DNA from: Gammaproteobacteria bacterium
Lineage (GTDB): Bacteria > Pseudomonadota > Gammaproteobacteria > GCA-001735895
DNA: 64,000 nt
Reading direction: 5' to 3'
NCBI GenBank assembly: GCA_030066085.1
Contig: JASJCI010000037.1
Span: 62,001-126,000, forward strand
The notes under the pieces: generated by a model
The model's database searches: none
Told to the model about the DNA's origin: nothing
What the model saw: only the letters and a program-made list of their open reading frames with translations
Position numbers and translations under genes: made by a program
Shown: piece by piece, positions 5,897 to 53,269 of the stretch
Layout of the letters: the number at the start of each line of letters is the position of its first letter
Position numbering within the stretch: the stretch's first letter is position 1

Positions 5897-5923
5897 AGAG
5901 AGGCTGCGTATACTAATCCAACA

Positions 5924-6179: not shown

Positions 6180-8210
<2,031 letters not shown>

Positions 8211-29558: not shown

Positions 29559-32075
29559 TCAGACGCTGGGGCGGAAGCGGCGCAGGCGCAGCGCGTTGGT
29601 CACCACCGAAACCGAGCTCAGCGCCATGGCCGCCGCGGCAATCATCGGGTTCAGCAGCGGCCCGCCGACCAGCAGCAGGGCGCCTGCCGCGATCGGGATA
29701 CCCGCGCTGTTGTAGGCGAAGGCCCAGAACAGGTTCTGGCGGATATTTCGCAGGGTGGCGCGGCCAAGTTCGATGGCGGTCAGAACGCCGGTTATCGAGC
29801 CGCGCATCAGCACCACCTGCGCGGTCTCCAGCGCGATGTCGGTACCGGCCCCGATCGCAATGCCCACGTCCGCCTGCGCCAGTGCCGGCGAGTCGTTGAT
29901 CCCGTCGCCGACCATGGCGACGCGTTTGCCGTCGGCCTGCAGTTCCCGGATCGCGCCGGCCTTGTCCTCCGGCATTACCTCCGCGATAACGCGGTCGATA
30001 CCCGCCTCGCGCGCAACCGTTGCGGCCGCGTGGCGGTTGTCGCCGGTCAACATCACGACCTCGAGCCCGGCGGTGCGCAACGCGTCGACCGCGGCCGCAG
30101 TTTCCGCCCTGAGCGTGTCGGCGATCGCCAGCAGACCGGCGTAGCGGCCGTCCAGCGCGAGATACACCGGGGTCTTGCCGTCGCGGGCGCAGGACGTTGC
30201 CGGCGCAGGCTCGGTTTCGATCACCCCGTTTGCCTGCATCAGGGCCAGGTTGCCCAGCAGCAGCGAGCGACCATCCACCGTGGCCGACAGGCCTCGTCCG
30301 GGAACGGCCTGGAAATCGCTGACCGGCAGGCCTGGCAGGCTGCGCGCCTCGGCGGCGGCCACGATCGCCGCTGCCAGCGCGTGTTCGGAGCCGGTCTCGG
30401 CGCTGGCCGCGAACCGCAGCAAGCTGTCGGCATCGAAGCCGTCAGCAGCAACGATATCCGTTACCGCGGGTTTGCCCGTGGTCAGGGTGCCGGTCTTGTC
30501 GAACACGATCGTATCGATCGAGCGTAACTGTTCGAGCGCCTCGCCCCCCTTGATCAGAACGCCGTACTCGGCACCTCTGCCGGTTCCGACCATGATCGCG
30601 GTCGGGGTTGCAAGTCCAAGTGCGCAGGGGCAGGCGATGACCATAACCGCGATAAAGATCGTCAGCGCGAACGGCAGATTCTCGCCCGCCAGCAGCCACG
30701 CCAGCGCGGCCGCGCTGGCGATGCCGATCACGACCGGAACGAAAATGCCGGAAACCCGGTCAGCGAGCCTTGCAATGGGTGCCTTGCCGGCCTGCGCCTG
30801 CTCCACCAGGCGGATGATCTGGGCCAGCGTGGTATCGGCGCCGATCCGTTCGACCTCGACGACGATGCTGCCATTCTGGTTGAAACTGCCGCCGGTTACC
30901 GGGTCGCCGGCGCGTTTCTCCACCGGCAGGCTCTCACCGGTCAACATGGATTCGTCGATCGCGGTGGCGCCCTCGATCACGCGGCCATCCAGCGGTATAC
31001 GCTGCCCCGGCTTGACCCGCATACGATCACCGACGCGAATGACATCGACCGGCAGCTCGGTCTCGCCGCCGTCGCGCAGGACCAGCGCCGTGCGCGGCTG
31101 GATCGCCATCAGTTTGCGAATCGACAGCGACGTGCGGCCGCGCGACAGGGCCTCGAGGTACTTGCCGAGCATGACGAAGGCGAGTATCGCGGCCGCGGTT
31201 TCGTAGTACAGCAGGCCGACCGCCGCGCTGTCGCCGGCAGCCACGCGGGCCGTATTGACCAGCGAGTACAGCATCGCGGAACCGGTTCCGAGCAGAATCA
31301 GCGAATCCATGTTGGGTGCTCGCCGCCAGAGGTTGCCGGCACCACTGCGGTACATGTGACGACCGATCCAGACCACGGGCAGGATCAGCGCGAGTTGCGC
31401 AAGGGCAAAATTCAGCGGTGCCGAGGCGGGTGCCAGCCAGGCGGGTAGCGGCATGCCGATCATGTGGCCCATGGTCAGAATCAACAGCGGCAGGGTGAAT
31501 GCCAGTGCGCTCAGTACCGCGCTACGCTGTGAGCGCAAGGCCATGTCACGCTCCAGTTCGCGCCTGTCGTCGACCCCCGATGCAGCGTCGATTCGGGGTT
31601 CGAAGCCGGCCGCGAGGATCGTATCGCTGACCCGGGACAGGGACGTGATCGCGGGATCGAACCGGATCGTGGCGTTGTCGTTCAGCAGGTTGACCGCAAC
31701 GCTACTGACGCCGTCGAGGTCGCCGACGACCTTTTCCACGCGCGCCGCGCAGGCGGCACAGCGCATGCCTTCGATCGCCAGCAGCACTTCGCGGATGGCG
31801 GGGTTTTCGCGCACACCGTAGCCGGCGTCACGAATCGCAGCGCCGATTGTGTTCAAATCGGTACGCGTCGGATCGAATTGCAGGTCGAGGCGCTCGGTCG
31901 CGAGATTGACATTGGCCATGTCGACGCCGTCGAGAGCGCCGACGACTTTTTCGACGCGTGCCGCGCAGGCACCGCAATGCATACCCTCGATATCGAGCAC
32001 TGCCTGCATAGACGAAGCCGCGGATTCGTCATTGCGCTGCTGCACGGGGCAACCGCTTGACGGGTTGGCGCCCAC
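29559..32075 (-). CDS. copA: Copper-exporting P1B-type ATPase
   Basis: The 838-residue protein has two N-terminal heavy-metal-associated domains with metal sites [13 protein letters not shown] and [13 protein letters not shown]. It also has eight expected membrane helices, the CPC motif in [13 protein letters not shown] (about residue 480), the phosphorylation motif [11 protein letters not shown] (Asp about 525), an HP-type site (EHALAAAI), and [10 protein letters not shown]. It exports Cu(I) across the inner membrane. Translation starts at GTG with an AGG ribosome site. It lies 31 bp downstream of csoR in the same operon, consistent with copper induction. Confidence 0.96.
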
Positions 32076-32106
32076 GGTTACCTGTGTCCCGGGTCAGTCA
32101 TGGCGA

Positions 32107-32439
32107 TCACATCCGGCCGACAACCTGCACGATTTCCTCGATTTTTTCGCTGAGCTCGGCAGAATCGGGCGAGGCCGCCGCCGTGCTCACGCAATGGTGC
32201 AGGTGTTTTTCGAGCACACCCATCTGCACCTGCTGCAGGGCAGACTGAACCGCCTTGATCTGGTTGACGATGTCGATGCAGTAGCGCCTCTGCTCGATCA
32301 TGCGGGTGATACCCTTGATTTGCCCGTCGATGCGTGCGAGCCGACTGAGCTGGCTCTGGTGATCGGGATAGAAAGCCTGGATGCTGAGGCCTTCGATTGC
32401 ATGACCGGCGGAATCTTCGCCGGTGCGAATGTCTTTCAT
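32107..32439 (-). CDS. csoR: CsoR-family copper-sensing repressor
   Basis: The 110-residue all-helical protein belongs to the CsoR/RcnR/FrmR family. The copper-type ligand triad is visible as Cys in RRYCIDIVNQ, His in VLEKHLHHC and the following Cys. The order Cys-His-Cys distinguishes copper sensors from RcnR and FrmR. The repressor would dissociate from DNA on binding Cu(I). It is the promoter-proximal gene of csoR-copA and has a matching operator in its promoter, so it is probably autoregulated. Confidence 0.92.
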   Translation of the reverse strand: MKDIRTGEDSAGHAIEGLSIQAFYPDHQSQLSRLARIDGQIKGITRMIEQRRYCIDIVNQIKAVQSALQQVQMGVLEKHLHHCVSTAAASPDSAELSEKIEEIVQVVGRM

Positions 32440-32473
32440 GTCGGTATCTGGCCTCGTATGACAGGAGTGAGGT

Positions 32474-32502
32474 ACTATACCCCCCTAGGGTACTTCTCGC
32501 AA
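32474..32502 (-). promoter_or_regulatory. csoR-copA promoter with CsoR operator
   Basis: On the minus strand -35 TTGCGA (32497-32502) and -10 TATAGT (32474-32479) are 17 bp apart. The inverted repeat TACCC-N5-GGGTA (32478-32492) covers the spacer and the edge of the -10. It has the same half-sites and spacing as characterised CsoR operators such as that of Bacillus subtilis copZA. Confidence 0.75.
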
Positions 32503-32560
32503 CAGAAGAGCGGCCGCCAGCCGGATCGGGATTTCGCTCCAGCGGTGTACCGCGACGGAT

Positions 32561-33289
32561 TCAGAAGATCGTGTTTTCGTAGAAGTGATGCGCCGTATTG
32601 CAACGGCTGGTGCGCAATTCGACCGGGGTGTCTTCGAGGGTTAACGCAATTCTCTCGATCTGCAGCAGCGCCGCACCCGGCGCGACCTCGAGCAGGGTTG
32701 CCTCGCGTTCCGATGCGCCTACCGCCTTCAGGCACTCGCTGGCGCGATGGATGGTAATGCCGTATTCGCGCTGGTAGAGCTCGTAAAGCGTATTGGGCAG
32801 GTTTCCCTCGCCATCCAGGCCAAGCCCCTCGAACAGTTCCGCCGGCAACACGATGTTTTCCAGTATGGTCGGCCGCTCGTCGAAACGCCGGATGCGCTCG
32901 ATATTGATGACCCGGCTGCCGCCGGGCAGATGCAGTTTCGCGGCTTCCGCGCGGGAAGCGGCTTTCCTGCGCAAGTGCAGCACCGAGCTCTGTGGCAGCG
33001 CTTTTTGTCCATCGTCGGCGGCGATATGAAAAAAGTGGAACAGCGCGCGCTCCTGGTCGTGGGTGGAAACGAAGGTTCCCCGTCCCTGTTTGCGAGTCAG
33101 GACGTTCTTTTCGACCAGTTCCGTGATCGCCTTGCGCACGGTACCCTGGCTTACGCCAAGGTCCTGGGCCAGCTGGATTTCGCTGGGTATGGCGTCACCG
33201 GGCAGCCAGTCGCCGCGCCCGATCCTGGCCACGAGCAGCTCCTTTATCTGCATGTAGAGCGAAATGGAACCCTTGTCTGTCGATAACAT
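32561..33289 (-). CDS. GntR-family (HutC/UTRA type) transcriptional regulator
   Basis: The 242-residue protein has an N-terminal GntR winged helix (YMQIKELLVARIGRGDWLPGD, helix-turn-helix IPSEIQLAQDLGVSQGTVRKAI) and a C-terminal UTRA effector domain (ENIVLPAELFEGL, CNTAHHFYENT). The start at 33289 is the first ATG giving a normal GntR N-terminus. The 33388 ORF start adds an unlikely basic extension. It faces the suyAB-like cluster across 230 bp holding a long palindrome. It therefore most likely represses that cluster until a pathway metabolite binds the UTRA domain. Confidence 0.9.
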   Translation of the reverse strand: MLSTDKGSISLYMQIKELLVARIGRGDWLPGDAIPSEIQLAQDLGVSQGTVRKAITELVEKNVLTRKQGRGTFVSTHDQERALFHFFHIAADDGQKALPQSSVLHLRRKAASRAEAAKLHLPGGSRVINIERIRRFDERPTILENIVLPAELFEGLGLDGEGNLPNTLYELYQREYGITIHRASECLKAVGASEREATLLEVAPGAALLQIERIALTLEDTPVELRTSRCNTAHHFYENTIF

Positions 33290-33413
33290 GTTCGGCCAAC
33301 CTCGCTGGCTTGTTGCTGACTGTCGAAACGTCCGGCTGCTGCATCGTCTTCGATCCCTCGGTTTGAGCGACCGGCTCGTGCCTAGCATAGCCAGCCAGGG
33401 CGGAAAAGACTAG

Positions 33414-33481
33414 TTGTACAATCAAATAATCTTATATAAGACTATTTGATTGCAAGCACATTGCTGTGCAATAATTCCGCC
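33414..33481. promoter_or_regulatory. Candidate GntR operators and promoter of the catabolic cluster
   Basis: The sequence 33419-33452 is a 34-bp palindrome with a single mismatched pair (outer arms CAATCAAATA and TATTTGATTG, core TCTTATATAAGA). It is flanked by the smaller palindromes TTGTACAA (33414-33421) and TTGC-TGT-GCAA (33471-33481). A possible -35 TTGATT (33446-33451) and AATAAT (33470-33475) would start transcription about 40 bp before suyA, so a repressor bound here would cover the -35. Confidence 0.6.
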
Positions 33482-33519
33482 CCAGCAATTTATCAGCAAA
33501 CTTCAACCCGGAGATTCAA

Positions 33520-33801
33520 ATGATCGATTTTGTTGTGCACGACGATGGAGACAGCGTCGGGGTCGTCGTCGTCGAAGGCGTCAAGGCGGGAGACGAGTTG
33601 ACGGGATGGGTAATGGACCAGAACATCGACATTACCTTCAAGGCCGCCAGCGATATCCCGATAGGGCACAAACTGGCCATCAAGGCCATGCAGGAAGGCG
33701 ATACCGTGATCAAGTACGGCACCGACATCGGCAAGGTTGTGGCCGACATCGGCGTCGGCGAACACGCCCACGTTCACAATATCAAGACCAAGCGCTGGTA
33801 A
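33520..33801 (+). CDS. UxaA-family lyase small subunit, SAF domain (SuyA-like)
   Basis: The 93-residue protein is a stand-alone SAF domain as found at the N-terminus of UxaA/GarD dehydratases. It ends in the motif GEHAHVHNIKTKRW, and DIPIGHKLAI lies mid-protein. As a separate small subunit next to a large one, it matches SuyA of (2R)-sulfolactate sulfo-lyase, which splits sulfolactate into pyruvate and sulfite. Related split enzymes can dehydrate sugar acids. It has a GGAG ribosome site and is the first gene of the cluster, behind the presumed GntR operator. Confidence 0.85.
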   Translation: MIDFVVHDDGDSVGVVVVEGVKAGDELTGWVMDQNIDITFKAASDIPIGHKLAIKAMQEGDTVIKYGTDIGKVVADIGVGEHAHVHNIKTKRW

Positions 33802-33847
33802 GCGCCTGCACCCAACGATTCATATTCCCTAATTCGGAGAACCAGTA

Positions 33848-35023
33848 ATGTCTCAAGACTTAGCAAACGCCAGTTTCTCGGGGTATCGGCGCGAGAATGG
33901 CCGGGTCGGCGTCCGTAACCACGTCATCATCCTGCCGGTCGACGATCTGTCCAACGCGGCCTGTGAAGCCGTGGCCAATAACATCGCGGGAACCATGGCG
34001 CTGCCTCATCCCTACGGAAGGCTGCAGTTCGGCGAGGATCTCGAGCTGCATTTCCGCACGCTGATCGGCACCGGGGCCAACCCCAACGTTGCCGCCGTCG
34101 TCGTCATCGGCATCGAAAACGGCTGGACCCAGAAAATTGTCGACGGTATAGCGGCCACGGGCAAACCGGTCACCGGTTTCGGCATCGAGCAGCACGGCGA
34201 TCACGAAACCATCATGAACGCTTCCAAGGTCGCCAAGGAGTACGTGCAGTGGGCGTCCGAACTGGCGCGCGAGGAAGCGCCGATCAGTGAACTGTGGGTT
34301 TCCACCAAGTGCGGCGAGTCGGATACCACCTCCGGCTGCGGCGCCAATCCGACCGTTGGCAACGCCTTCGACAAGCTCTACCCGCACAAGGCCACGCTGC
34401 TGTTCGGTGAAACCTCGGAAATTACCGGTGGCGAACATCTCGTCGCGGAGCGTTGCAGAAATGACGAAGTGCGTGAGCGCTTCATGTTCATGTTCAACCG
34501 CTACCAGGACCTGATCGACCGTTTCAAGACTTCCGACCTGTCCGACTCGCAGCCCACCAAGGGCAATATCGAGGGCGGCCTGACCACGATCGAGGAAAAG
34601 GCGCTCGGCAATATCCAGAAGATCGGCAAGGAGTGTGTCATCGATGGCGTGCTCGACAAGGCCGAGGCACCGACCGGCCCCGGCCTGTGGTTCATGGATT
34701 CGTCGTCGGCGGCGGCGGAAATGGTCACCCTGTGCGCGGCCGCGGGTTACGTCGTGCACTTTTTCCCGACGGGACAGGGCAACATCATCGGCAACCCCAT
34801 CATCCCGGTGATCAAGCTGTGCGCCAACCCGCGCACGGTACGCACCATGGGTGAACACGTCGATGTCGACGTCTCGGGCCTGTTGCGCAAGGAAATGTCG
34901 CCGAGTGACGCGGGTGACGCGCTGCTGGACATGATGTTCCGTACCGCCAACGGTCGCCTGACGGCTGCCGAGGCGCTCGGACATCGCGAGTTCGTACTCA
35001 CGCGTCTTTACGAGAGCGCCTAG
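33848..35023 (+). CDS. UxaA-family lyase large subunit (SuyB-like)
   Basis: The 391-residue protein matches the large domain of UxaA/SuyB enzymes. Its motifs are [28 protein letters not shown], the metal-ligand region [17 protein letters not shown] (Cys residues near 160-170), [25 protein letters not shown] (key part [17 protein letters not shown]), and [11 protein letters not shown]. The family uses an Fe or Fe-S site for beta-elimination on 2-hydroxy-acids. The strong overall likeness to SuyB favours sulfolactate or a similar 3-substituted lactate as substrate. No sulfite exporter or sulfite dehydrogenase gene is in the window. Confidence 0.85.
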
Positions 35024-35050
35024 CGTTTCGACAGGAGGCTGCCGGGCCGA

Positions 35051-35083
35051 CGGGCGCAACGGGAAAAACACCCGTTTCGCCCG
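35051..35083 (+). repeat. Strong intercistronic hairpin after suyB-like gene
   Basis: A 13-base stem with one mismatch (CGGGCGCAACGGG at 35051-35063 against 35071-35083, loop AAAAACA) follows the suyB-like stop by 27 bp. No T run follows. It may stabilise the suyAB part of the transcript or partly terminate it before the ThDP enzyme gene. Confidence 0.55.
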
Positions 35084-35242
35084 GTGTCGGCTGCGGCAGG
35101 TGACTGCCTTCGGTGCGCCTGGCCTGCATCGGGTTGCTTACCCGGAGCGCTCGGCCGGGGTGACGAAACCACGCCGGTGGCCGAACCGCCGGCAAGGCTT
35201 GCGGCGCCGTTATCGATTTCAATCAATCGCGGAGCGTAATTA

Positions 35243-36850
35243 ATGCGGGGTTCTGATCTCGTAGCCCATAGCCTGGCCAGCGCCGGTGTCCGGGTAATCT
35301 TTTCCCTCTCCGGCAACCAGATCATGCCGATCTACGATGCCTGCATCGATGCCGGTATCCGCATCATTCATACCCGGCACGAGGGGGCCGCGGTGTACAT
35401 GGCCGAAGCCCATGCGCAACTCACCGGGCAGCCCGCGGTTGCCATGGTGACGGCCGGCCCCGGTTTTACCAGCAGTCTCGGACCCCTGTGTGCCGTGCGC
35501 GCCGCGGAAAGCCCGGTCCTGCTGATCAGCGGTGATTCGCCGCTGGCGGGCGACGGCAAGGGTTGTTTCCAGGAGCTCGACCAGGTCGGCATGTCGAGTT
35601 CGGTGACCAAGCTGTCGTTACGCGCCACCCGGGCCGAGAACCTGGGCTTCGATATCGCGCTGGGCCTGCGCGTGGCCGCTGCCGGTCGTCCGGGGCCGGT
35701 GCACCTGGCATTGCCGTTCGACCTGTTGCAGCAAAACCTGCAGGATCCGGTGTTGCCTGCGGCCGAAGATTTCCGGGCCGAGGTCATCGCGGCCGAGGCC
35801 GACGCGCTGCAGGGAATATGCGCATCGCTGGCGCGGGCCGAGCGACCGTTGATCCTGACGGGACCGGCGATGAATCCGACCCGTGCTCCCTGGCTGTTAC
35901 AACTGGCCGATGTTGTCGATACACCGGTGGTGGCGATGGAAAGTCCGCGCGGCCTGAAAGATCCCTGCCTCGGGAATTTTGCCAGCGTGCTTGCGCAGGC
36001 CGATGTGATCCTGCTGCTCGGCAAGATCGTCGACCACACGCTCGGCTTCGCTCAGCCGCCGGCGATCGCCGACGATTGTCGACTGATGGTGGTCGATCCG
36101 GACACCGATATGCTGGATCGCGCGCGGCGCGCGCTGGGCGCTCGCCTGCTGCGGGCACATCGCGCCGACGCCGGCGCCACCGCCCGCGCGTTGATCGCGA
36201 TGGCCCCGGGCGGCGGGGATCGCTCGCAGTGGCGCGCCCGGGTAGCGCAAGCCATGACAAGCAGGCCGGATGATATCGACGCAACCGGCAGTGAGCGCAT
36301 ACACCCCGCGTTACTTTGCGCCGCGGTGCAGAATTTCCTGCAACATGCGAAAGAGCCCGTGCTGATCATCGATGGTGGTGAATTCGGCCAGTGGGCACAG
36401 GCCTGTGTGACAGCCGAAACCCGCATAATCAACGGCCCGTCGGGTTGTATCGGCGGCTCGATCTGTTACGCGCTGGCGGCAAAGATTGCCCGCCCCGGGG
36501 CCACCGTGCTCGCGCTGCTCGGAGACGGCACGGCGGGATTTCATTTTTCCGAGTTCGAAACCGCGCATCGCTACGGGGTGAAATTTATTGCCGTTATCGG
36601 GCACGACGCGCGCTGGAATGCCGAGTACCTGATTCAGCAGCGGGATTTCGGCGAGGACCGAATCTACGAGTCTGAACTCGATCCGACCCGTTACGACCTG
36701 GCGGCGGCCGGTTTCGGCTGTCACGGCGAGCACGTGACCGATCCCGCGAAGCTCGACGCGGCGCTGCGGCGTGCCGCTGACAGCGTATTGCCGACCTGCC
36801 TCGTGTGCGAGATCGACGGTCAACCCGCCCCGTCGGCAGCAGGTCACTGA
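35243..36850 (+). CDS. ThDP-dependent enzyme, acetolactate synthase-like (first copy)
   Basis: The 535-residue protein has the three-domain fold of the acetolactate synthase/2-oxoacid decarboxylase family. The ThDP-activating Glu is in TRHEGAAVYMAEA (about residue 48). The pyrophosphate and Mg2+ motif reads LLGDGTAGFHFSEFETAHRY (about 420). It lacks the FAD-pocket signature I would need to call it a true AHAS, and no regulatory subunit lies nearby. In this operon it more likely decarboxylates or ligates a 2-oxo acid made by the FMN oxidase. It has a GGAG ribosome site. Confidence 0.85.
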   Translation: MRGSDLVAHSLASAGVRVIFSLSGNQIMPIYDACIDAGIRIIHTRHEGAAVYMAEAHAQLTGQPAVAMVTAGPGFTSSLGPLCAVRAAESPVLLISGDSPLAGDGKGCFQELDQVGMSSSVTKLSLRATRAENLGFDIALGLRVAAAGRPGPVHLALPFDLLQQNLQDPVLPAAEDFRAEVIAAEADALQGICASLARAERPLILTGPAMNPTRAPWLLQLADVVDTPVVAMESPRGLKDPCLGNFASVLAQADVILLLGKIVDHTLGFAQPPAIADDCRLMVVDPDTDMLDRARRALGARLLRAHRADAGATARALIAMAPGGGDRSQWRARVAQAMTSRPDDIDATGSERIHPALLCAAVQNFLQHAKEPVLIIDGGEFGQWAQACVTAETRIINGPSGCIGGSICYALAAKIARPGATVLALLGDGTAGFHFSEFETAHRYGVKFIAVIGHDARWNAEYLIQQRDFGEDRIYESELDPTRYDLAAAGFGCHGEHVTDPAKLDAALRRAADSVLPTCLVCEIDGQPAPSAAGH

Positions 36851-37077
36851 GCTGAAATCCCGCCGCTGGGCACAACCCCCGCTGATGTCTCGCTGGCCCC
36901 GGTGTCGAGGCTTGCGGATACCGCTTGCGGCCGCGGCAGCCGGCCTGGCAAGAGCCCGAGAGTCGAAATTCGAAGCGCGTCATGCTTCCGCTTGCAGTCG
37001 CTGTTCTTCGGCGACGCATCAGGATAGACTTGCGTGCCTGATTCAAGGTCGGCGCAGCAGCAGGAGTCGTCAGTCGC

Positions 37078-38217
37078 GTGAGTAACAGGATTTTCAGCAC
37101 GTCGGATGCGCGCAGGCTTGCCAGGCGACGCCTGCCGCGCATGATTTTCGACTTCATCGACGGCAGTGCCGGTGAAGAGCAATGTTCCCGGCTTAACGTC
37201 GACAAACTCGATGCCCTGCGACTGTTGCCCCGCGTGCTGGTCAACGTCGAGGGTCGCAAGCAGCAGAAATCACTGTTCGGACGTAGCTGGGGTCTGCCGT
37301 TCGGCATCGCGCCGATGGGCATGTGCAACCTGACCTGGCCGGGCGCCGACCTGATGCTCGCGGATGCCGCGCGCAAGTACGATATTCCCCTGGGCCTGTC
37401 GACCATGGCCTCGAGCAGTATCGAGGCCACCGGCGAACGCGTCGGCGACCGGGCCTGGTTTCAGCTCTATGTCGGCGAATCGGAAGCGGTCGCCAACCGC
37501 CTGCTCGAACGCGCCGAAAAGGCGGGGTTTACCCACATGATCCTGACCGTCGATGTCCCGATCATCGGTGTACGCCCGCGCGAGCAGCGCAACGGTTTCA
37601 AGTCGCCGTTTCGCATCGGGCCGCGCCAGTTGCTGGATTTTGCGCTGCACCCGCAGTGGTCGCTGACCACCCTCAGGACAGGTATGCCGAGGCTGGCCAA
37701 CGTCAATCTGCCCGGCGGCGAACAGCTGAAACGGGACGAGGCTCGTGGTTTGCTCGACTGGGATTACCTGGCGCGTTTACGCGCACGCTGGCCGGGCAAG
37801 CTGATCGTCAAGGGTGTGCTCGGCGGTGAGGATTCGATTCGCATCCGCGACGCCGGGGCAGATGCCATTTGCGTTTCCAATCACGGCGGTCGGCAGTTCG
37901 ACAGTTCACCCGCGGCGATCGAAATGCTGCCGCTTGTGCGCCAAGCGGTTGGCCCAGACTATCCGCTGTTGTTCGACAGTGGCGTGCGCAGTGGGGAAGG
38001 GGTCATGAAAGTACTGGCACTGGGCGCCGATTTTGTCCTGATTGGCCGCCCCTTCCTGTATGCCATGGGTGCGGGCGGCTACGCCGGCCTGTGCGAATTG
38101 ATCGAGATGCTGCGCAACCAGATCGATATCGGCCTGGCGCAGATCGGTTGTCCCGATGTCGAGGACCTGGATTCGAGTTATGTGCTGGACGAATCGAAGG
38201 GGGTGAACGCTAGATGA
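37078..38217 (+). CDS. FMN-dependent alpha-hydroxy-acid oxidase/dehydrogenase (LldD family)
   Basis: The 379-residue protein, with a GTG start, is a TIM-barrel flavoprotein of the L-lactate/mandelate dehydrogenase family. Visible elements are IAPMGMCNLTWPGAD, TMASSSIEATGERVGD, the YVG strand, LIVKGVLGGEDSIR with the flavin lysine, and the catalytic SNHGGRQFDSS with His. It would oxidise a 2-hydroxy acid to a 2-oxo acid, feeding the flanking ThDP enzymes as in the mandelate pathway. The substrate may be sulfolactate or another 3-substituted lactate. Its stop overlaps the next start (ATGA). Confidence 0.9.
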   Translation: MSNRIFSTSDARRLARRRLPRMIFDFIDGSAGEEQCSRLNVDKLDALRLLPRVLVNVEGRKQQKSLFGRSWGLPFGIAPMGMCNLTWPGADLMLADAARKYDIPLGLSTMASSSIEATGERVGDRAWFQLYVGESEAVANRLLERAEKAGFTHMILTVDVPIIGVRPREQRNGFKSPFRIGPRQLLDFALHPQWSLTTLRTGMPRLANVNLPGGEQLKRDEARGLLDWDYLARLRARWPGKLIVKGVLGGEDSIRIRDAGADAICVSNHGGRQFDSSPAAIEMLPLVRQAVGPDYPLLFDSGVRSGEGVMKVLALGADFVLIGRPFLYAMGAGGYAGLCELIEMLRNQIDIGLAQIGCPDVEDLDSSYVLDESKGVNAR

Positions 38218-39914
38218 AGGTTCGCGGCGGCATGCTGCTTGCGCGCGCTTTCCAGGAAAAGGGCGTAACGCAGGTGTTCACCCTCAGCGGCGGCTTCTGC
38301 AACCCGGCGCTGGAAGGTTTCATGGAGTGTGGTATCCCGGTGGTCAATGCGCCGCACGAGCAGGTAGCCGGTCATCTCGCCGATGGCTACACGCGAATCA
38401 CTCGCCGCCCGGCGGTGTGCCTGGTAGGCCCCGAGGGTTTCGCCAACGCCGTGCCGGCGATGATGGAAGCCTGGGGCGAACGTTCGCCGGTGATATTCGT
38501 GACCGGATCGAGCACGCTCAAACGCCAGGGCAGCGGTGGTTTCAAGGAAATCGACGATGTCAGTATCGCCGCGCCGCTGACCAAGTACAGTGTCTCGATC
38601 ACGGATGGCGAGCGGATTTCGGAGTTCGTCGACCGCGCCTGGAAAATTGCGCTGTCGGGATATCCGGGTGCCGTGCACCTGAGCCTGCCGGTCGATATCA
38701 TGTTCAGCTCTTACGACGCGGATGCCATGCGCAACGAACGGCCGTGGGATCGAGGGGCGGGCCGGGTTGCGCGCGCCTGGCCCTGTCCGCGGGATCTCGA
38801 AACCGTGCTGGAGCTGGTGCGCGCTGCGCGCAAGCCGGTAATCATCGGTGGTCACGGCGTCTGGTGGGCCGGCGCCGAGGAGCAACTCGAAGCCAGCGCG
38901 CGGCGGCTCAATATCCCGGTATTCAACGTGCCCTACCACCAGAAACTGCTGTCCGAGGCAAGCGACGTCTACATGGGGCTGGCCGACGTGCACCAGTACC
39001 ATCCGTCGCGCCGGGTGCTGCAGGAATGCGACCTGGTGCTGATGGTTGGCGCACGGCTCGACAACCAGATGAATTTCGGTAACCCGCCCCTGTTTCCGGC
39101 AGGCACCCGGCTCGTCTGCATCAACGGTTCGCCGGAAGAAATCGAGCACAACCGCGCCGCCGACCTGAACCTGCTGTCCGATCCCGGGGCGTTTTTCGAT
39201 GCGCTCGCCGAACTCGAACCGCTCTCGCCGGACTGGCTCGAGACCAACCGTGAATGGCGCGCGGCGTGGGTCGACGAGATGCTGGCCGACATACCCGCGC
39301 TGGCAGACGACCGCATCCATCCGCTCGCGCTCGCGCTCGACGTGCAGGCGGCGATGCGCGACGACGACTGGCTCGTAATCGACGGCGGCAACACGCACTT
39401 CTGGTCCGAGATCGCGGTCAACATCGCCGGCCATCGTGGTCTGCGGCTCGGCAACGTGCTGCACCCCGGCACTTTCAGCATGCTCGGCGTCGGCGTGGCG
39501 TTCGCCGCCGCGGCCTGTATCGACGATTCGTCCCGCCGGCTGGTGGTCATCAGCGGCGATGGCGCCTTCCTCTCCGGCGGCTCGAGCATCGAGGCGGCAT
39601 TCCAGGAAAACCTGCCGATTGTCGTCGTGATCGACAACAACGGCGGCCTCGACTGCATATCCCAGCAACAGGAGCGCCTGTTCGAAAACGGCCGGCATTT
39701 CGCCACCGACTTTCGTGATATTCCGTTCCACGGCATGTTCGAGGGGCTCGGCGGTCACGGCGAACTGGTCGAGCGCCGTGCCGACCTGGTGCCGGCAATC
39801 GAACGCGCGCTGGCCAGCGGCAAGACCGCCTGTGTCAACGTCAGGACGGTGGGGCATATCAGTCCGATCGTACTGGCCACCACCAGCAAGCGCGACAAGG
39901 CGTCGATCGAGTAA
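38214..39914 (+). CDS. ThDP-dependent enzyme (second copy)
   Basis: The 566-residue protein belongs to the ThDP decarboxylase/lyase family, with Glu in NAPHEQVAGHLADGYTR (about residue 47) and the GDGAFLSGGSSIEAAFQ motif (about 448). It clearly differs from the first copy in length and N-terminus (MLLARAFQEKGVTQVFTLSGG). Its four-base overlap with the FMN oxidase and two-base gap to the following gene show a shared transcript. Possible roles are 2-oxoacid decarboxylase, sulfopyruvate-type decarboxylase or a carboligase. It does not look like Xsc. Confidence 0.85.
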   Translation: MKVRGGMLLARAFQEKGVTQVFTLSGGFCNPALEGFMECGIPVVNAPHEQVAGHLADGYTRITRRPAVCLVGPEGFANAVPAMMEAWGERSPVIFVTGSSTLKRQGSGGFKEIDDVSIAAPLTKYSVSITDGERISEFVDRAWKIALSGYPGAVHLSLPVDIMFSSYDADAMRNERPWDRGAGRVARAWPCPRDLETVLELVRAARKPVIIGGHGVWWAGAEEQLEASARRLNIPVFNVPYHQKLLSEASDVYMGLADVHQYHPSRRVLQECDLVLMVGARLDNQMNFGNPPLFPAGTRLVCINGSPEEIEHNRAADLNLLSDPGAFFDALAELEPLSPDWLETNREWRAAWVDEMLADIPALADDRIHPLALALDVQAAMRDDDWLVIDGGNTHFWSEIAVNIAGHRGLRLGNVLHPGTFSMLGVGVAFAAAACIDDSSRRLVVISGDGAFLSGGSSIEAAFQENLPIVVVIDNNGGLDCISQQQERLFENGRHFATDFRDIPFHGMFEGLGGHGELVERRADLVPAIERALASGKTACVNVRTVGHISPIVLATTSKRDKASIE

Positions 39915-39915
39915 C

Positions 39916-40260
39916 ATGGCGACCCTGTCCTCGCACGTCCTCGACTCGCTGCGCGGTACCCACGCGGCGGGTATTCGCTGCGCGTTGTACCGCATCGACG
40001 ATAACACCCGGGTGCCGGTGTTCGAGGTCGGCGCCGACGCGGAGGGACGAATATCGCGCGCGCTGGAGTTCGCCGCCGGGGTCGCCGAGGCCGAGTTCGA
40101 ACTCGTGCTGCATGCCGCGAGCTATTTCGCTGACCAGGGCCTGGATGCGACGGGCTGCGTGCGTGAGGTAGTCCTTCGATTTCACGCCGCACAAGGTGGT
40201 CGCTATCACCTGCCGGTCATGCTTGCGCCCCATTCCTACTCGACCTGGTGGTCGGACTGA
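39916..40260 (+). CDS. Transthyretin-like / 5-hydroxyisourate hydrolase-like protein
   Basis: The 114-residue protein aligns with HIU hydrolases: LSSHVLDSLRGTHAAGI at the start (His7), an Arg in DAEGRIS, and the C-terminal RYHLPVMLAPHSYSTWW with the active-site His. The family's diagnostic C-terminal Tyr-Arg-Gly-Ser is replaced by Trp-Trp-Ser-Asp. No uricase or OHCU decarboxylase gene is present. It may therefore hydrolyse a different cyclic amide or ureide formed in this pathway. Confidence 0.8.
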   Translation: MATLSSHVLDSLRGTHAAGIRCALYRIDDNTRVPVFEVGADAEGRISRALEFAAGVAEAEFELVLHAASYFADQGLDATGCVREVVLRFHAAQGGRYHLPVMLAPHSYSTWWSD

Positions 40261-40265
40261 CGCGC

Positions 40266-41387
40266 GTGGGCGCGGCGAAACTCAGCGTATCGCGCCGCCA
40301 GCGGGCTACCCCCTATACCCCGCGCGTAACGGCGCTGGGGGTAACCGACTTTTCCGTCGTCAATCATACGATCCTGCCCAAGGGCTTCGGCCGCAGCGTC
40401 GCCGAGGACTACTGGCATCTGCGTTCGGCGGTCCAGCTGTGGGACGTCGGCTGCCAGCGGCAGGTCGAAGTCAGCGGCCGCGACGCGGCGCGCCTGGTGC
40501 AGTACCTGACGCCGCGCGATCTTACCGCCGCCGAGGTCGGTCAGTGCCTGTACGCGCCGCTGATCGACGACGATGCCGGCATGCTCAATGATCCGATCAT
40601 CCTCAAGCTGGCCGAGGATCGCTTCTGGTTGTCGATCGCGGATGCCGACATCCTGCTGTGGGTCCGCGGTCTTGCCCACGGCATGGGCTTCGAGGCGGAG
40701 ATCGACGAACCGGATGTCTGGCCACTGGCGGTGCAGGGCCCGCGGGCGGTCGAACTCGCCAGCCGGGTGTTCGGCGATGTGCTGCGCGACCTGCCTTTCT
40801 TTCGCTTCGTGCCGGTAACGTTTGCCGAGCGGCCCTTGCTGGTGGCGCGCAGCGGCTACAGCCTGCAGGGCGGCTTCGAAATCTACGTCGATGGCTTCGA
40901 CCGCGGCACGGCGGTGTGGGACGCGCTGTGGGCGGCGGGACGTGACCTGGATCTTGCCCCCGGATCCCCCAACCTGATCGAACGCATCGAGAGCGGGCTT
41001 TTGTCCTACGGTAACGAAATGACGCGCGCGAACAATCCGCTCGAATGCAACCTCGATCGATTCTGCCGGCTCGACGGCGCGATCGATTGCATCGGGCTAG
41101 ACGCGCTGCGGCGTATTGCCGAAGCCGGCCCCGAACGCCGGATCCGCGGCCTGCGTTTCGACGGCGATCCCTGTCCGCCATGCCAGCACCCGTGGCCGCT
41201 GCGGGTGGACGGCGGCTACGCCGGGCAGGTGACCTCGGCGATCTGGTCGCCGCGATTTGAACAAAATGTCGCGCTTGCTATGCTTGAACGCACACACTGG
41301 GACGAGGGCACCCCGGTTTCGATCGAATGCGGCGATGGTTCGCTGCGCCGCGGCGAGGTTTGCGACCTGCCCATGGAGGAAACTTGA
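40266..41387 (+). CDS. DmdA-like tetrahydrofolate-dependent demethylase (GcvT family)
   Basis: The 373-residue protein is recognisably closer to DMSP demethylase DmdA than to glycine-cleavage T protein. It has an SRRQRATPYTP N-terminus, LWDVGCQRQVEVSGRD, MLNDPIILKL, LARSGYSLQGGFEIYVDG (read in part as ARSGYSLQGGFEIYVDG), PNLIERIESGLLSYGNEM and the end EVCDLPME. DmdA moves a methyl group from DMSP to tetrahydrofolate. The GTG at 40266 gives the same N-terminal length as the SAR11 enzyme. A GTG at 40248 is also possible. The tyrosine before the NHMLLP motif of DmdA is Val here (VVNHTILP), so the substrate may differ. Confidence 0.85.
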   Translation: MGAAKLSVSRRQRATPYTPRVTALGVTDFSVVNHTILPKGFGRSVAEDYWHLRSAVQLWDVGCQRQVEVSGRDAARLVQYLTPRDLTAAEVGQCLYAPLIDDDAGMLNDPIILKLAEDRFWLSIADADILLWVRGLAHGMGFEAEIDEPDVWPLAVQGPRAVELASRVFGDVLRDLPFFRFVPVTFAERPLLVARSGYSLQGGFEIYVDGFDRGTAVWDALWAAGRDLDLAPGSPNLIERIESGLLSYGNEMTRANNPLECNLDRFCRLDGAIDCIGLDALRRIAEAGPERRIRGLRFDGDPCPPCQHPWPLRVDGGYAGQVTSAIWSPRFEQNVALAMLERTHWDEGTPVSIECGDGSLRRGEVCDLPMEET

Positions 41388-42211
41388 GCGCGATCAAGAC
41401 GATGAAGCTCTACCAGCACGTCGAGCGCATTTACCGGGAGCTGGGAGAACTGGGCAAGAACGCGGATGATCCGCTAACGGTCGAGGAACTCAGCGCGTTC
41501 GACCAGCTGCACTATCACGGCACCCAGGCGCTCGATATCGCGATGGCAATGGTCGGGGTCGAAGGCGAGCCGCGCTGGCTGGAGATCGGTTCGGGTCTCG
41601 GCGGTCCGGCGCGCTACCTCGCCGCCTACAGTGATGCCCGTGTCACCGCGCTCGAATTGCAGGCCGATCAGCACGAAATTGCCACCAGCCTGACCGCGCG
41701 TTGCGGGCTCGCCGACAGGGTCGAGCACGTGCGTGGCGATATCCTCGACTTCGAGCGTCCCGAGGGTAGTTACGATGCGATCCTGAGCTGGCTGTCGCTG
41801 TACCACATCAAGTATCGTCCGCTGCTGCTGGAGCGCTGCCGGCAGTTACTGGCACCGGGCGGCCGGTTTTACACCGAGGACCTGACCGCGCGGCGCGATA
41901 TCGACGAAGCGCACATGCAGGAACTGGAACGCGATCTGTACGCGATCACGCTGCGCCGCATCGACCAGTACCGGCAAGACCTGGAGAACGCCGGCTTCGT
42001 GGTCGAGACCTGCCAGAGCATGAGCTCGAGCTGGGCCGAGTTCGTGCGCGTGCGGCTGGCGAAATTTCGCGCTGACCGCGCCCGCCACCTGCGCGTGCAC
42101 GGCGAGGCGGCGGTCAATGCGATGACCGACTTTTATTCCGCCGTCAATCGCCATTTCCAGGCGGGCAGGCTCGGCGGGCTCAGACTGTGCGCGGTAAAAC
42201 CGGGAGATTAA
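41384..42211 (+). CDS. Class I SAM-dependent methyltransferase
   Basis: The protein of 275 residues carries the SAM-binding motif WLEIGSGLGGPARYLA (about residues 62-77), the acidic ALELQ strand end, and motif III-like LLAPGGRFYTEDLT. The TTG start overlaps the DmdA-like stop and has GGAGGA just upstream. An ATG at 41402 is the alternative. The acceptor is unknown. Sitting directly after a demethylase, it could methylate a pathway intermediate or accept methyl equivalents from the same pool. Confidence 0.85.
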   Translation: MSAIKTMKLYQHVERIYRELGELGKNADDPLTVEELSAFDQLHYHGTQALDIAMAMVGVEGEPRWLEIGSGLGGPARYLAAYSDARVTALELQADQHEIATSLTARCGLADRVEHVRGDILDFERPEGSYDAILSWLSLYHIKYRPLLLERCRQLLAPGGRFYTEDLTARRDIDEAHMQELERDLYAITLRRIDQYRQDLENAGFVVETCQSMSSSWAEFVRVRLAKFRADRARHLRVHGEAAVNAMTDFYSAVNRHFQAGRLGGLRLCAVKPGD

Positions 42212-42216
42212 CCGAC

Positions 42217-42888
42217 ATGAGCGACTGGAAGCACGCCTACCGATCCTTTTACTACGAGACCGCCGATGAGCCCGAGGACATCCGCCTCGATCCCGCGCGC
42301 ACCGCGCTGCTGGTGATCGATATCCAGAATACCTACATGGAGGTCGATCCCGACCCGGTCGAGGCCGAACGCTGGGCAGCGTTTCGTCGGCGCATGAACG
42401 ACCAGGTAATCCCGGGTACCGGCGAGCTGATCGCAGCCTGTCGCGAGCGCGGCGTCGAGATCATCTTCGCGCGTATCGCCTGCCTCAAACCGGACGGGCG
42501 CGACCGCTCGCTGAGCCAGAAAAAACCGGGCTTCAACTACCTGCTGTTGCCGAAGGACCGCCACGACAGCCAGATCGTGCCCGAGCTGACGCCGCAACAG
42601 GATGACATCGTCGTGGTCAAAACCACCGACAGCGCGCTGACCGGCACCAACCTGCGCCTGGTGCTGCGCAACATGGAAATCAGCGACGTGATCGTTGCCG
42701 GTATCTTTACCGATCAGTGCGTCAGTTCGACCGTCCGCAGCCTGGCCGACGAAAGTTTCGGCGTGGTCGTGGTCGAGGACTGTTGCGCGGCGGCGACCGA
42801 CGAGCTGCACCTGAACGAGCTGCGATCGATCAACATGATCTACTGCCATGTCGTGCAGTCGGAAGACGTGAGGGATTTTCTTGCCTGA
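42217..42888 (+). CDS. Isochorismatase-family cysteine hydrolase
   Basis: The 223-residue protein has the family's catalytic triad: Asp in LLVIDIQNTYMEVD (about residue 35), Lys in VVVKTTDSALTGTN (about 130) and Cys in FTDQCVSSTVRSLAD (about 168). This family includes N-carbamoylsarcosine amidase, biuret hydrolase and ureidoacrylate hydrolase, so C-N bond hydrolysis is the likeliest reaction. It starts five bases after the methyltransferase and overlaps the next gene by eight bases. Confidence 0.88.
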   Translation: MSDWKHAYRSFYYETADEPEDIRLDPARTALLVIDIQNTYMEVDPDPVEAERWAAFRRRMNDQVIPGTGELIAACRERGVEIIFARIACLKPDGRDRSLSQKKPGFNYLLLPKDRHDSQIVPELTPQQDDIVVVKTTDSALTGTNLRLVLRNMEISDVIVAGIFTDQCVSSTVRSLADESFGVVVVEDCCAAATDELHLNELRSINMIYCHVVQSEDVRDFLA

Positions 42889-44449
42889 TCCCGCGGTATT
42901 CGCAAACTACTACGAAGCCCCGTCAGTCGATCGCCCCGAAATCTGGTGTTACAGCGACCGGCCGTGTTACGCGCCCGGCGATATCGTGCGTTTTCATGTT
43001 TCCACCAATGCGCCGCGCTACAGCCTCGAGATCGCGCGCGATGCGCTGGACTTCGAAATCTATCACCGTCGGGACGATTTGCCCGGCAGCTGGCACGATA
43101 CGCCGCGTAACGCCTCCGAGATCGGTTGCGGCTGGCCGGTGGCGCTGGAATTCGAACTCCCGCTGGACTGGCCTTGCGGTGGCTATCGCGTTACCTGCCG
43201 CATCGATACCGCCGACGGCCCGCTCGAGCAGCACTACCTTTTCCTGTTGCGTTCCGCGCGCCGCGGACGCGGTCAACGGCTGTTGCTGATTTCGTCCACC
43301 GGCACCTGGAGCGCCTACAACAACTGGGGCGGATCGAATCATTACGAGGGAATTGCCGGTCCCGACGGCAACGACTTTGCCCCCGTCGTGTCGCTCGAGC
43401 GTCCGCTCGCGCGCGGATTTGTCGTGCTGCCGGCGGATGCACCGCGCGCGGCGCCCGCGCGCGCGCCGGATGCCGACGCGCCGGTGTCTTACCCGCACAT
43501 GAGCTGGGCCCATGCCAACGGTTATTCGAAGAAGTACGCCTCGGCCGGCTGGGCGATTCACGAGCGCCATTTCGTACACTGGGCGGAACGTAACGGCTAT
43601 GCCCTGGATATCGCCTCGCAATACGACCTGCAGCTCGATCCCGCGGTGCTGGAAGACTATCCCTGCATCGTTTTTATTGGCCACGACGAGTACTGGTCGT
43701 GGGAAATGCGCGATGCGGTCGATGCCTATGTCGATGGCGGCGGGCGGGTCGCGCGCTTCGCCGGTAATTTCCTGTGGCAGACCCGGCTCGAGGACGACGG
43801 TCGGCGCCAGGTCTGCTACAAGTACCGGGCGCGCGCCGAGGACCCGTTACGCGGCAGCCAGCGCACTACCACCGCCTGGGAGGCCGCCGAAGTCGGGCGC
43901 CCGGGCGCGCTGACCTTCGGCCTCAACGGAATTCGCGGCGTGTATGCGGGCTGGGGCGGCTGCGTTGCGTTCGGCGCCGGCGGTTTTCCGCTGTACCGCG
44001 CCGACCACTGGGCGTTCGAGGGTACCGGGCTCGGTTACGGCGATGTGCTCGGTGCGCAAAGCCGGGTATTCGCCTACGAAGTCGACGGACTCGATTACGT
44101 CATCCGCGAGGGGTTGCCGTATCCGTCGGGACGTGAAGCGGTGCCCGACGGTCTCGAAATCCTCGCCGTCGGGCTCGCGTCGAACGAGGAAATTGCGCGC
44201 GGGGTAGTGCAGGACGAGCTGTTCCTGGCTGGCGACAACCTGTTCAAGGCCGAAATCCTGTACGGCGAAGCAACCGCGGACAACATCGCCCGCGCCAACC
44301 GTGGCTCGGGCATGATCGTGCACTTCGAGCGTGGTCGCGGCGAGGTGTTCCACGCCGGCAGCGTCGAGTGGATCGCGGGGCTGATCCGGCGCGATGCCCA
44401 GGTAGAGCGGGTTACGCGGAACGTACTCGACCGCTACCTGCGACGCTGA
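42881..44449 (+). CDS. N,N-dimethylformamidase large-subunit-like protein
   Basis: The 522-residue protein, with a TTG start, matches the C-terminal region of DMFase large subunit. It shows STGTWSAYNNWGGSNHYEG, FIGHDEYWSWEMRDAVDAYVDGG (key part GHDEYWSWEMRDAVDAYV), GRVARFAGNFLWQTR, DHWAFEGTGLGYGD and a terminal EVFHAGSVEWIAGL. DMFase is an iron amidohydrolase whose metal is bound by Tyr and Glu residues. The Tyr/Glu pair in DEYWS may be part of that site. No small-subunit gene is present, and the protein is shorter than DmfA2, so it is a relative, not the known enzyme. Confidence 0.85.
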   Translation: MPDPAVFANYYEAPSVDRPEIWCYSDRPCYAPGDIVRFHVSTNAPRYSLEIARDALDFEIYHRRDDLPGSWHDTPRNASEIGCGWPVALEFELPLDWPCGGYRVTCRIDTADGPLEQHYLFLLRSARRGRGQRLLLISSTGTWSAYNNWGGSNHYEGIAGPDGNDFAPVVSLERPLARGFVVLPADAPRAAPARAPDADAPVSYPHMSWAHANGYSKKYASAGWAIHERHFVHWAERNGYALDIASQYDLQLDPAVLEDYPCIVFIGHDEYWSWEMRDAVDAYVDGGGRVARFAGNFLWQTRLEDDGRRQVCYKYRARAEDPLRGSQRTTTAWEAAEVGRPGALTFGLNGIRGVYAGWGGCVAFGAGGFPLYRADHWAFEGTGLGYGDVLGAQSRVFAYEVDGLDYVIREGLPYPSGREAVPDGLEILAVGLASNEEIARGVVQDELFLAGDNLFKAEILYGEATADNIARANRGSGMIVHFERGRGEVFHAGSVEWIAGLIRRDAQVERVTRNVLDRYLRR

Positions 44450-44465
44450 GGAGCTGAGGAGCCGA

Positions 44466-45023
44466 TCAGTTACCGGAAAGGGCCGGGTCCCAGGGCTCCA
44501 GTTCCGAGAGCTGGTTACCATCCACCACGGTATCGGGCCCGCCGAAGAACTGCCGCCGTTCGCCGAACACCTCGGTTACCACGGTCCACACGGTGTCCTT
44601 GTAGTCAAAGTACAGCGAGCAGCTCGTGGCAAACCCGTCGGGGCGCTTGATACAGACCAGGCCCTTGCGACTGACGTCCCAGCTGAAGTTGGAAAACTCC
44701 TTGCCTTCCCAGATGTAGTCCAGCCGGCCGCTCGGGTGGAAATAGGCGCCGCCGTTGGCCCATTGCTGGGTTTTACCGGAGAGGTGCGCGGTGGCCTGTT
44801 CGCGGTCGAGGCGCACGGCGCCGTCATTGGTGATTCTTTCCTCGAGCGAAGCAGCACGCGGGTTTTCCTGGCTCTGCTCGGGGCCTTGTTCGGTTATGGC
44901 TTCATCAGTGGCCGTGCGGTCGTACTGGACCGCGGAGCCGATGGCGGGTTCAACCATAAGCGCGGTTAGCAGGCCGCAGGACAACAGTAACAGCGGGAAT
45001 CGGCTGGCAAGGTTTCGCAACAT
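44466..45023 (-). CDS. Secreted protein of unknown function (DUF995-like)
   Basis: The 185-residue protein starts with a signal peptide (FPLLLLSCGLLTALMVEPAIGSA). A polar, Glu/Gln-rich linker and a beta-rich domain follow, with two cysteines that could form a disulfide (GLVCIKRPDGFATSCSLYF). The pattern of WANGGAYFHPSGRLDYIWEG resembles DUF995 proteins, but I am not certain. The start at 45023 has a good AGGAG ribosome site. It converges with the DMFase-like gene and is not part of that cluster. Confidence 0.72.
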   Translation of the reverse strand: MLRNLASRFPLLLLSCGLLTALMVEPAIGSAVQYDRTATDEAITEQGPEQSQENPRAASLEERITNDGAVRLDREQATAHLSGKTQQWANGGAYFHPSGRLDYIWEGKEFSNFSWDVSRKGLVCIKRPDGFATSCSLYFDYKDTVWTVVTEVFGERRQFFGGPDTVVDGNQLSELEPWDPALSGN

Positions 45024-53257: not shown

Positions 53258-53269
53258 GTCTCGATCCTC

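Follow-up and report, generated by a model that had tools for sequence, protein, structure and literature searches.

A widespread four-gene cassette in a gammaproteobacterial operon and its possible role in the catabolism of a methylated onium compound

We analyzed a stretch of 64,000 nucleotides (hereafter designated as the window) of contig JASJCI010000037.1 from a member of Gammaproteobacteria, in which ten genes for putative catabolic enzymes are found on the plus strand between positions 33520 and 44449. Four of them, arranged in the order FMN-Th2-HIU-Dmd (37078-41387), encode a flavin mononucleotide (FMN)-dependent enzyme acting on 2-hydroxy acids, a thiamine diphosphate (ThDP) enzyme (Th2), a protein similar to 5-hydroxyisourate hydrolase (HIUase), and a relative of DmdA, the demethylase of dimethylsulfoniopropionate (DMSP). 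The four genes constitute a conserved cassette that has apparently not been assigned to any pathway. Our preferred explanation, to which we give a probability of roughly 0.5 on the basis of the sequence data, is that this widespread cassette serves to break down a methylated onium compound, either a 2-hydroxy acid itself or a precursor of one. This explanation builds on the families, order, conservation and co-occurrence of the genes, from which the substrate and every reaction proposed below are inferred.

Layout of the operon

The ORF list and the Pfam and NCBIfam scans agreed with the first-pass annotation, which had been made from the sequence alone, in that ten open reading frames (ORFs) of the families described there lie on one strand at approximately the same coordinates. 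The tight spacing noted from the FMN gene onward was also found: with the starts chosen here, every junction from FMN to the last gene (DMF; see below) either overlaps or leaves 1 base. Upstream, the gaps are wider, namely 46 bases between SuyA and SuyB, 219 between SuyB and Th1, and 227 between Th1 and FMN. A scan of 32400-44700 for terminators (10 versus 8.7 in shuffled sequences, sd 2.9) and promoters (4 versus 2.4, sd 1.5) yielded no clear excess and thus does not settle the transcription units. The cassette genes are as follows.

37078..38217, plus strand: FMN-dependent 2-hydroxy-acid oxidase/dehydrogenase (FMN; Pfam FMN_dh), cassette gene 1
38214..39914, plus strand: ThDP lyase/decarboxylase (Th2), cassette gene 2
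39916..40260, plus strand: HIUase-like putative hydrolase with a transthyretin fold (HIU), cassette gene 3; the family scan used the longer ORF 39715-40260
40248..41387, plus strand: DmdA-like, putatively tetrahydrofolate (THF)-dependent demethylase (Dmd; GCV_T; passes NF009133), cassette gene 4

Distribution of the cassette and co-occurrence of its genes

An alignment of Th2 was used to scan 84,980 species genomes, and the best 80 of the 465 confirmed loci (at least 69% identity in the best segment) were retained. Counts out of 80 therefore describe the closest relatives of Th2 and not a random sample. As the loci were picked by Th2 only, counts of the genes beside it are not circular. At least seven of the 80 (L139 among them) are the same records as loci fetched from the genus of the window, and the two sets are not independent in those loci; a few others carry Chloroflexi names, for which we suspect misbinning.

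The first-pass annotation had proposed searching other genomes for the same gene order, and the four-gene cassette indeed recurred, with all four genes at 62 of the 80 loci. HIU was detected within 6 kb after Th2 in 78 loci, Dmd within 8 kb in 75, and FMN in 66; by our criterion, only two misses are attributable to contig ends (FMN in L093 and L135). The gap between Th2 and HIU was 100 bases or less in 74 of the 78 loci. The carriers comprise SAR11, SAR116/Puniceispirillum, SUP05, Granulosicoccaceae, Polaromonas and other betaproteobacteria, Hyphomicrobiales, and other alpha- and gammaproteobacteria. The recurrence of the order FMN-Th2-HIU-Dmd across such distant lineages implies more than chance.

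On the other hand, the distribution is patchy, as Th2 was detected at an E-value of 1e-150 in only two of 398 genomes sampled evenly from the phylum, namely the genome carrying the window and one other. No Th2 was found at 1e-100 among 72,556 plasmid records. Among 76 related genomes, Th2 occurred in 16, and HIU homologues of a high-scoring type (167-215 bits) were found in the same 16 and nowhere else, adjacent to Th2 in 16/16; matches of the ordinary HIUase type (65-91 bits) were separate genes in 31 of the 76. The pairwise distances of the cassette proteins correlated with one another (r of 0.86-0.90 over 63 sequences, uncorrected for the species tree).

For closer comparison, we used 19 loci from 18 genomes of the same genus and family, which had been selected for holding Dmd or DMF and many of which lie on cut contigs. 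Uniqueness to this genome, which the first-pass annotation had named as a finding that would speak against its proposal, applies among these 19 loci to the exact ten-gene order and not to the part from FMN to DMF. Its statement that no pathway with this gene set had been described holds for the genes from FMN to DMF: no description of the cassette was found in the open PMC literature, a scope that leaves most subscription papers and preprints aside, and nothing in that literature on homarine, mycosporine or 4-dimethylsulfonio-2-hydroxybutanoate (DMSHB) matched it. Aminomethyltransferases of SAR11 with an unknown substrate have been noted, and the passages concerned do not mention the cassette (PMC3160333).

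The DmdA-like protein

Dmd exceeds the cut-off of the NCBIfam model NF009133, 'DMSP demethylase' (520.9 versus 410), and shares the GcvT fold and domains with DmdA of Pelagibacter ubique (PDB 3tfh), the letter of which was also the commonest in the cassette proteins at 31 of the 42 positions compared. Such resemblance would be expected if the region were an operon for demethylating DMSP by a true DmdA, with the remaining genes as unrelated passengers. Several observations disagree with this explanation. In a tree with one reference DmdA and no support values, the cassette proteins formed their own clade, whereas the solved DmdA grouped with another DmdA-like protein of the window genome, encoded at C1. 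DmdA Y32, which we take for a residue of the DMSP pocket, is replaced by Val in 66 of 66 cassette proteins, whereas Tyr is found in the solved DmdA and in the paralogues L002-L006 of the window genome (Ala in the paralogue L007). Moreover, the ten genes include none of the DmdB/C/D type, that is, no AMP-ligase, acyl-CoA dehydrogenase or enoyl-CoA hydratase. On these three grounds, we rejected plain DMSP demethylation as the best reading and regard a DMSP operon as highly unlikely. Because the copy in the window passes the usual model, caution is called for when such DmdA-like genes are counted as DMSP demethylases in surveys.

In the same tree, the Dmd family had the solved DmdA as its neighbor and was distant from the GcvT-fold paralogues L006 and L007. 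The window genome (4.39 Mb) contains 21 matches to the GcvT/DmdA fold, five of which, including the cassette copy, are at least 40% identical to the cassette protein. Second GcvT-type proteins, found at 12 loci of Pelagibacteraceae and other alphaproteobacteria, bear Ala at the position of DmdA Y32.

Th2 and the 2-hydroxy-acid step

Th2 is strongly conserved: the mean identity is 76% over the 63 common sequences, and in an alignment of 81 sequences, 280 of 566 columns are near-invariant. In these 81, E49, GDGAF and the C-terminal tail KRDKASIE are found without exception, and NNGG in 80; the Glu, GDG-N and F-x-E positions are retained. The closest solved ThDP enzymes are oxalyl-CoA decarboxylase/2-hydroxyacyl-CoA lyase (HACL), formolase and benzaldehyde lyase (BAL). 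Th2 differs from oxalyl-CoA decarboxylase, HACL and BAL in its own invariant tail and in missing the equivalog cut-offs for oxalyl-CoA decarboxylase/HACL (TIGR03254, 180.6 versus 739.4; NF058623, 230.5 versus 600). Among the best 25 of 51 NCBIfam families, no cut-off was reached (best, 265 versus 587). The conserved E49 argues against Th2 being glyoxylate carboligase, which we assume to have no Glu at this position. The predicted structure of Th2 was poor (pLDDT 63.5) and was not used.

The FMN enzyme matched (S)-mandelate dehydrogenase best in the PDB, and the motif positions Q, Y, D, K, H and R are invariant in 67 sequences. At the position that we take to be equivalent to Tyr24 of spinach glycolate oxidase, Phe occurs in 54 sequences and Tyr in 10. 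FMN was absent from 14 of the 80 loci, three of which hold possible substitutes for the 2-hydroxy-acid step. In L098 and L104, Th2 is immediately preceded by an ApbA-family gene (L098, TIGR00745, 236 bits versus a cut-off of 141), and a GlcD-like FAD oxidase gene directly follows HIU in L153 (250.8 versus 567.9). These genes suggest that other enzymes may keep the 2-hydroxy-acid step where FMN is missing, and the idea is suggestive only, since no replacement gene was recognised in the other 11 loci, two of which are at contig ends. L153, from Pelagibius sp. Alg239-R121, which also holds L145, is a second Th2-HIU copy with TctA upstream (TctC and TctB by eye) and the GlcD-like oxidase downstream; neither FMN nor Dmd was found at this locus.

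The HIUase-like protein

The predicted structure of HIU (pLDDT 93.7) matched the HIUase 8uw4 best in the PDB, with a TM-score of 0.84. Three residues that align with solved HIUases, and that we take to be catalytic, are kept almost without exception in the cassette proteins (H7 in 79/79, R45 in 78/78 with one gap, and H98 in 79/79). The cassette protein thus shares the transthyretin fold and the H-R-H residues with HIUase. It differs from HIUase in what we regard as the hallmark of the family, the C-terminal YRGS, as W111 stands in 79/79 proteins where YRGS has Tyr. In addition, it scored below the cut-off of TIGR02962 (66.2 versus 87.45 bits). The terminal sequence is YSTYRGS in 18 of the 20 ordinary HIUase-type genes fetched from relatives; of the remaining two, one yielded no frame and the other has an unrelated tail. 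In a tree, these 18 were separated from the 79 cassette proteins with a support of 1.0. On these differences and the score gap between the two types in the related genomes, we rejected an ordinary HIUase of purine degradation.

Proposed pathway and candidate substrates

The DmdA-like enzyme would transfer a methyl group from a sulfonium (or quaternary ammonium) center to THF, and the FMN enzyme would oxidize a 2-hydroxy acid to the 2-oxo acid, with the two steps in either order. Th2 would then decarboxylate or cleave the 2-oxo acid, and the HIUase-like protein may hydrolyze the product of Th2. As a single substrate, a dimethylsulfonio or methylthio 2-hydroxy acid would fit best, for instance DMSHB, which would be converted via 4-methylthio-2-hydroxybutanoate (MTHB) and 4-methylthio-2-oxobutanoate (MTOB) to methanethiol. 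We favor a substrate of the DMSHB type only weakly, with an N-methylated relative as the main alternative; the sulfonium compound suggested in the first-pass annotation remains a good candidate. As the four-gene order is found in SAR11, SAR116, SUP05 and other lineages, the compound degraded is probably common.

The families of neighboring genes considered here were chosen after viewing the lists, from partly annotated neighbors and with no background rate, and their counts represent occurrences rather than enrichment. Some of them speak for a methylthio or sulfonium compound. Genes for SBP56 (the methanethiol-oxidase family), a CoA-binding protein and Fer2 occur together upstream on the same strand in L101 and L110, and on the opposite strand in L153. 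In L103 and L105, two similar metagenome-assembled genomes, genes for adenosine deaminase, MtnA and methylthioinosine phosphorylase lie upstream of FMN-Th2, each passing its curated cut-off. A homocysteine methyltransferase-like gene was found at at least 63% identity in L129, L132, L135 and L143 (126.8 bits, below the cut-off of 215), and a branched-chain aminotransferase gene, likewise a neighbor in line with sulfur chemistry, in nine Pelagibacteraceae loci.

Other observations weigh against the DMSHB route. It is hard to see where the HIUase-like step would fit in, and the presence of Th2-HIU without FMN and Dmd in L153 indicates that these two enzymes may not need a methylated substrate. 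SBP56 scored far below the cut-off of the MtoX model (148 versus 650). Outside the genus, the genes most often found with the cassette encode a Dpp/Gsi-type ABC transporter (33 of the 80 loci at any identity) and an S51 peptidase-like protein (28 of 80), and a DMSHB substrate does not account for either; the first-pass annotation had proposed to look for co-occurring transporters. The transporter genes of G391 share 72-82% identity with their counterparts at SAR116, Polaromonas or Granulosicoccaceae loci. Furthermore, several neighboring genes speak for a nitrogen compound. MttB-like genes of one cluster adjoin the cassette in 11 loci of SAR116, other alphaproteobacteria, one member of Granulosicoccaceae and Pelagibius (18 loci at any identity). 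A flavoprotein of the old yellow enzyme (OYE) type is encoded in L136 and L138, with a 36% relative in L139, which also holds a choline-sulfatase-like gene (284.6 versus a cut-off of 433), and five alphaproteobacterial loci hold a gene similar to that of betaine aldehyde dehydrogenase.

It is possible, though we lean away from it, that the substrate is instead an N-methylated amine or betaine, and that MttB-, OYE- or second GcvT-type enzymes take the first methyl groups in other lineages and the cassette the rest. The MttB-like genes and the second GcvT-type genes mentioned above are consistent with this possibility, as are the opposite-strand neighbors of the cassette in L152 (MttB, DapA-family, aldehyde dehydrogenase and DAO-type oxidase) and the OpuAC and BCCT genes approximately 7-10 kb downstream in the window. 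The position of the Dmd family beside the solved DmdA, in the tree without support values, argues against it, and so do the genes of the methanethiol-oxidase family and of methylthioadenosine salvage that adjoin the cassette in other lineages. Altogether, the neighbors point both ways, to methylthio or sulfonium compounds and to N-methyl compounds.

Regarding the reaction itself, it is possible, though less likely than not, that Th2 and the HIUase-like protein represent a new two-enzyme chemistry, in which an onium-derived 2-oxo acid would be cleaved by the ThDP enzyme and the product hydrolyzed by an enzyme that has the transthyretin fold but acts on something other than a purine. Together with Dmd, they could give SAR11, SAR116, SUP05 and sediment gammaproteobacteria a hitherto undescribed way to mineralize a compound abundant in phytoplankton, DMSHB or one of its relatives, the methyl group passing to THF. 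The cassette would add a demethylation route beside those for DMSP and glycine betaine, and would give the HIUase family a second function.

Two side observations concern genes near the cassette in other genomes. The SBP56 proteins encoded in the SBP56/CoA-binding/2Fe-2S ferredoxin triad are 84-87% identical across three differently named lineages. In L152, the MttB, DapA-family, aldehyde dehydrogenase, DAO-type and (by eye) GntR genes lie together at 724-6730 on the minus strand, a gene set that, as we presume, resembles that for the use of hydroxyproline betaine.

The SuyAB-GntR module and Th1

Four further genes precede the cassette in the window.

32561..33388, minus strand: GntR/UTRA regulator (Pfam GntR and UTRA), divergent from suyAB here; assigned to the SuyAB module
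33520..33801, plus strand: SuyA-like small subunit (SuyA/UxaA-N-like; weak match to TIGR03248, 27.5 bits), separate module
33848..35023, plus strand: SuyB-like large subunit of the (2R)-3-sulfolactate sulfo-lyase type (Pfam GD_AH), separate module
35243..36850, plus strand: ThDP enzyme of the HACL/BAL-like group (Th1), outside the conserved cluster

Judging from the sequences, SuyAB and GntR resemble a known module for sulfolactate or 2,3-dihydroxypropane-1-sulfonate (DHPS), which appears to be a unit separate from the cassette. As in the SuyAB and HpsNOP systems of DHPS degradation, the small and large UxaA/GD_AH subunits are split and have homologues in an hps/suy context. SuyB is 79.5% identical over 391 amino acids to a UxaA-family protein in a plasmid cluster of Cupriavidus pinatubonensis that starts with annotated hpsN and hpsO, followed by transporter and dehydrogenase genes before the UxaA-family gene; SuyA is 59% identical to its homologue in that cluster. 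The order GntR-SuyA-SuyB is that of the homologues in Paracoccus versutus, which have genes for a histidinol-dehydrogenase-like protein, a sulfate exporter-family protein and sulfite oxidase nearby and the GntR protein of which is 40% identical to that of the window. The window differs from the known systems in that the HpsN-like gene of its genome sits on a different contig and in that, among the loci read, only those of the window genus have the module next to the cassette; within this genus, SuyB is 92-94% identical. In relatives, an HpsN-like gene lies near SuyAB in L064, L075 and L076 (the L064 copy being 60.6% identical to annotated HpsN; L076 also holds TRAP genes).

A single methylated C3 sulfonate might be degraded by the products of the ten genes together, SuyAB and Th1 included, which would agree with the location of the genes on one strand in the window and with the juxtaposition of SuyAB-GntR and the FMN cassette in six relative loci (Iso-DMF alone in a seventh, L076). 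Nevertheless, GntR is beside SuyA in all seven relative loci holding SuyAB, and SuyAB lies there on the strand opposite to GntR and the genes after it (7/7). Because inverting SuyB-SuyA-GntR as a block yields the order in the window, the one-strand arrangement looks like a local inversion. Th1 was detected at at least 38% identity in none of the 19 relative loci, seven of which span GntR to FMN while many others are cut. The cassette loci outside the genus gave a single SuyB match, of 29% identity, and the closest plasmid homologue of SuyB is the one in the hpsN/hpsO cluster. On the orientation of SuyAB and the absence of Th1, we rejected one pathway for all ten genes, and we find a common sulfonate hardly credible. 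The earlier claim that the genes must act together accordingly stands for the genes from FMN to DMF, which form a conserved operon, and does not extend to all ten.

In L064 (1218-2384, minus strand) and L075, a gene for a GbcA-like Rieske oxygenase (150.8 versus a cut-off of 670) adjoins the HpsN-like gene beside SuyAB.

Additions to the operon in the genus of the window

Three genes follow the cassette in the window.

41384..42211, plus strand: S-adenosylmethionine methyltransferase-like protein (alternative start 41327), genus addition, absent in some relatives
42187..42888, plus strand: isochorismatase-like amidohydrolase (Iso), genus addition
42881..44449, plus strand: hydrolase of 522 amino acids similar to the large subunit of N,N-dimethylformamidase (DMF; Pfam DMFA2_C, 230.5 bits), genus addition

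Iso, DMF and often the methyltransferase are, as far as the loci compared indicate, additions to the cassette operon in the genus of the window. In the 19 relative loci, Iso was found in 13, DMF in 14 and the methyltransferase in 10. In the set of 80 cassette loci, only those close to the genus contained Iso and DMF, and the methyltransferase gave one match of 30% near the cassette outside it (L161). Of 369 genomes sampled from the class, only the one carrying the window yielded DMF at an E-value of 1e-60. GntR-Iso-DMF occur together in L076, and a DMF of 53% identity is present without the cassette in L077, which belongs to a different genus of the family.

Iso possesses D45, K145 and C178, which we take as the catalytic triad of isochorismatase-like enzymes, and falls short of the equivalog cut-offs of the RutB and biuret type (81.5 versus 377.95 and 78.1 versus 370). 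DMF shares the DMFA2_C domain with the large subunit of N,N-dimethylformamidase (DMFase; PDB 6lvb), as well as an equivalent of E521 (E270, in a significant segment). Y146 aligned with Y399 of DMFase only in a non-significant segment of -1.8 bits, and the third ligand was unaligned; E521 and Y399 are, as we assume, iron ligands. The two proteins differ in length (522 versus 775 amino acids), and the overall match was weak, at approximately 30.6 bits. No small subunit of DMFase was recognised among the flanking ORFs scanned in the window.

These additions raise the possibility of a pathway for a ureide or amide, in which FMN would generate an oxamate- or oxalurate-like acid from a carbinol-type 2-hydroxy acid, Th2 would decarboxylate it to a formyl compound, HIU, Iso and DMF would release formate and an amine, and Dmd would demethylate the amine. 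The presence of three C-N hydrolase families in one operon and the closeness of Th2 to oxalyl-CoA decarboxylase speak for this pathway. So does L071, which retains FMN-Iso-DMF without Th2, HIU and Dmd and has no Th2 in its genome, as well as an Ldh_2-type gene (malate/lactate/ureidoglycolate dehydrogenase, below cut-offs) after Dmd in L109, L111 and L117. Nonetheless, the restriction of Iso and DMF to the genus, the large shortfall of Iso from the RutB cut-off, and the absence of uricase, hydantoinase and allantoinase among the annotated neighbors (a part of all neighbors) make a ureide or amide pathway unlikely.

Other genes in the window

A gene for a heavy-metal P-type ATPase and one for a metal-sensitive repressor (29559-32439, minus strand) are located directly upstream of the GntR gene. 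On the other side of the operon, an OpuAC glycine-betaine-binding domain is fused to an NMT1/TAXI-like domain, adjoining a BCCT transporter gene (51338-54817, minus strand); in the relatives L065 and L068, DMF is likewise followed by genes for malonyl-CoA decarboxylase, OpuAC and BCCT. Further downstream, a gene for a protein similar to M24 peptidases and ectoine hydrolase (55438-56958, minus strand; below cut-offs) lies beside a RidA-family gene (55061-55411, minus strand).

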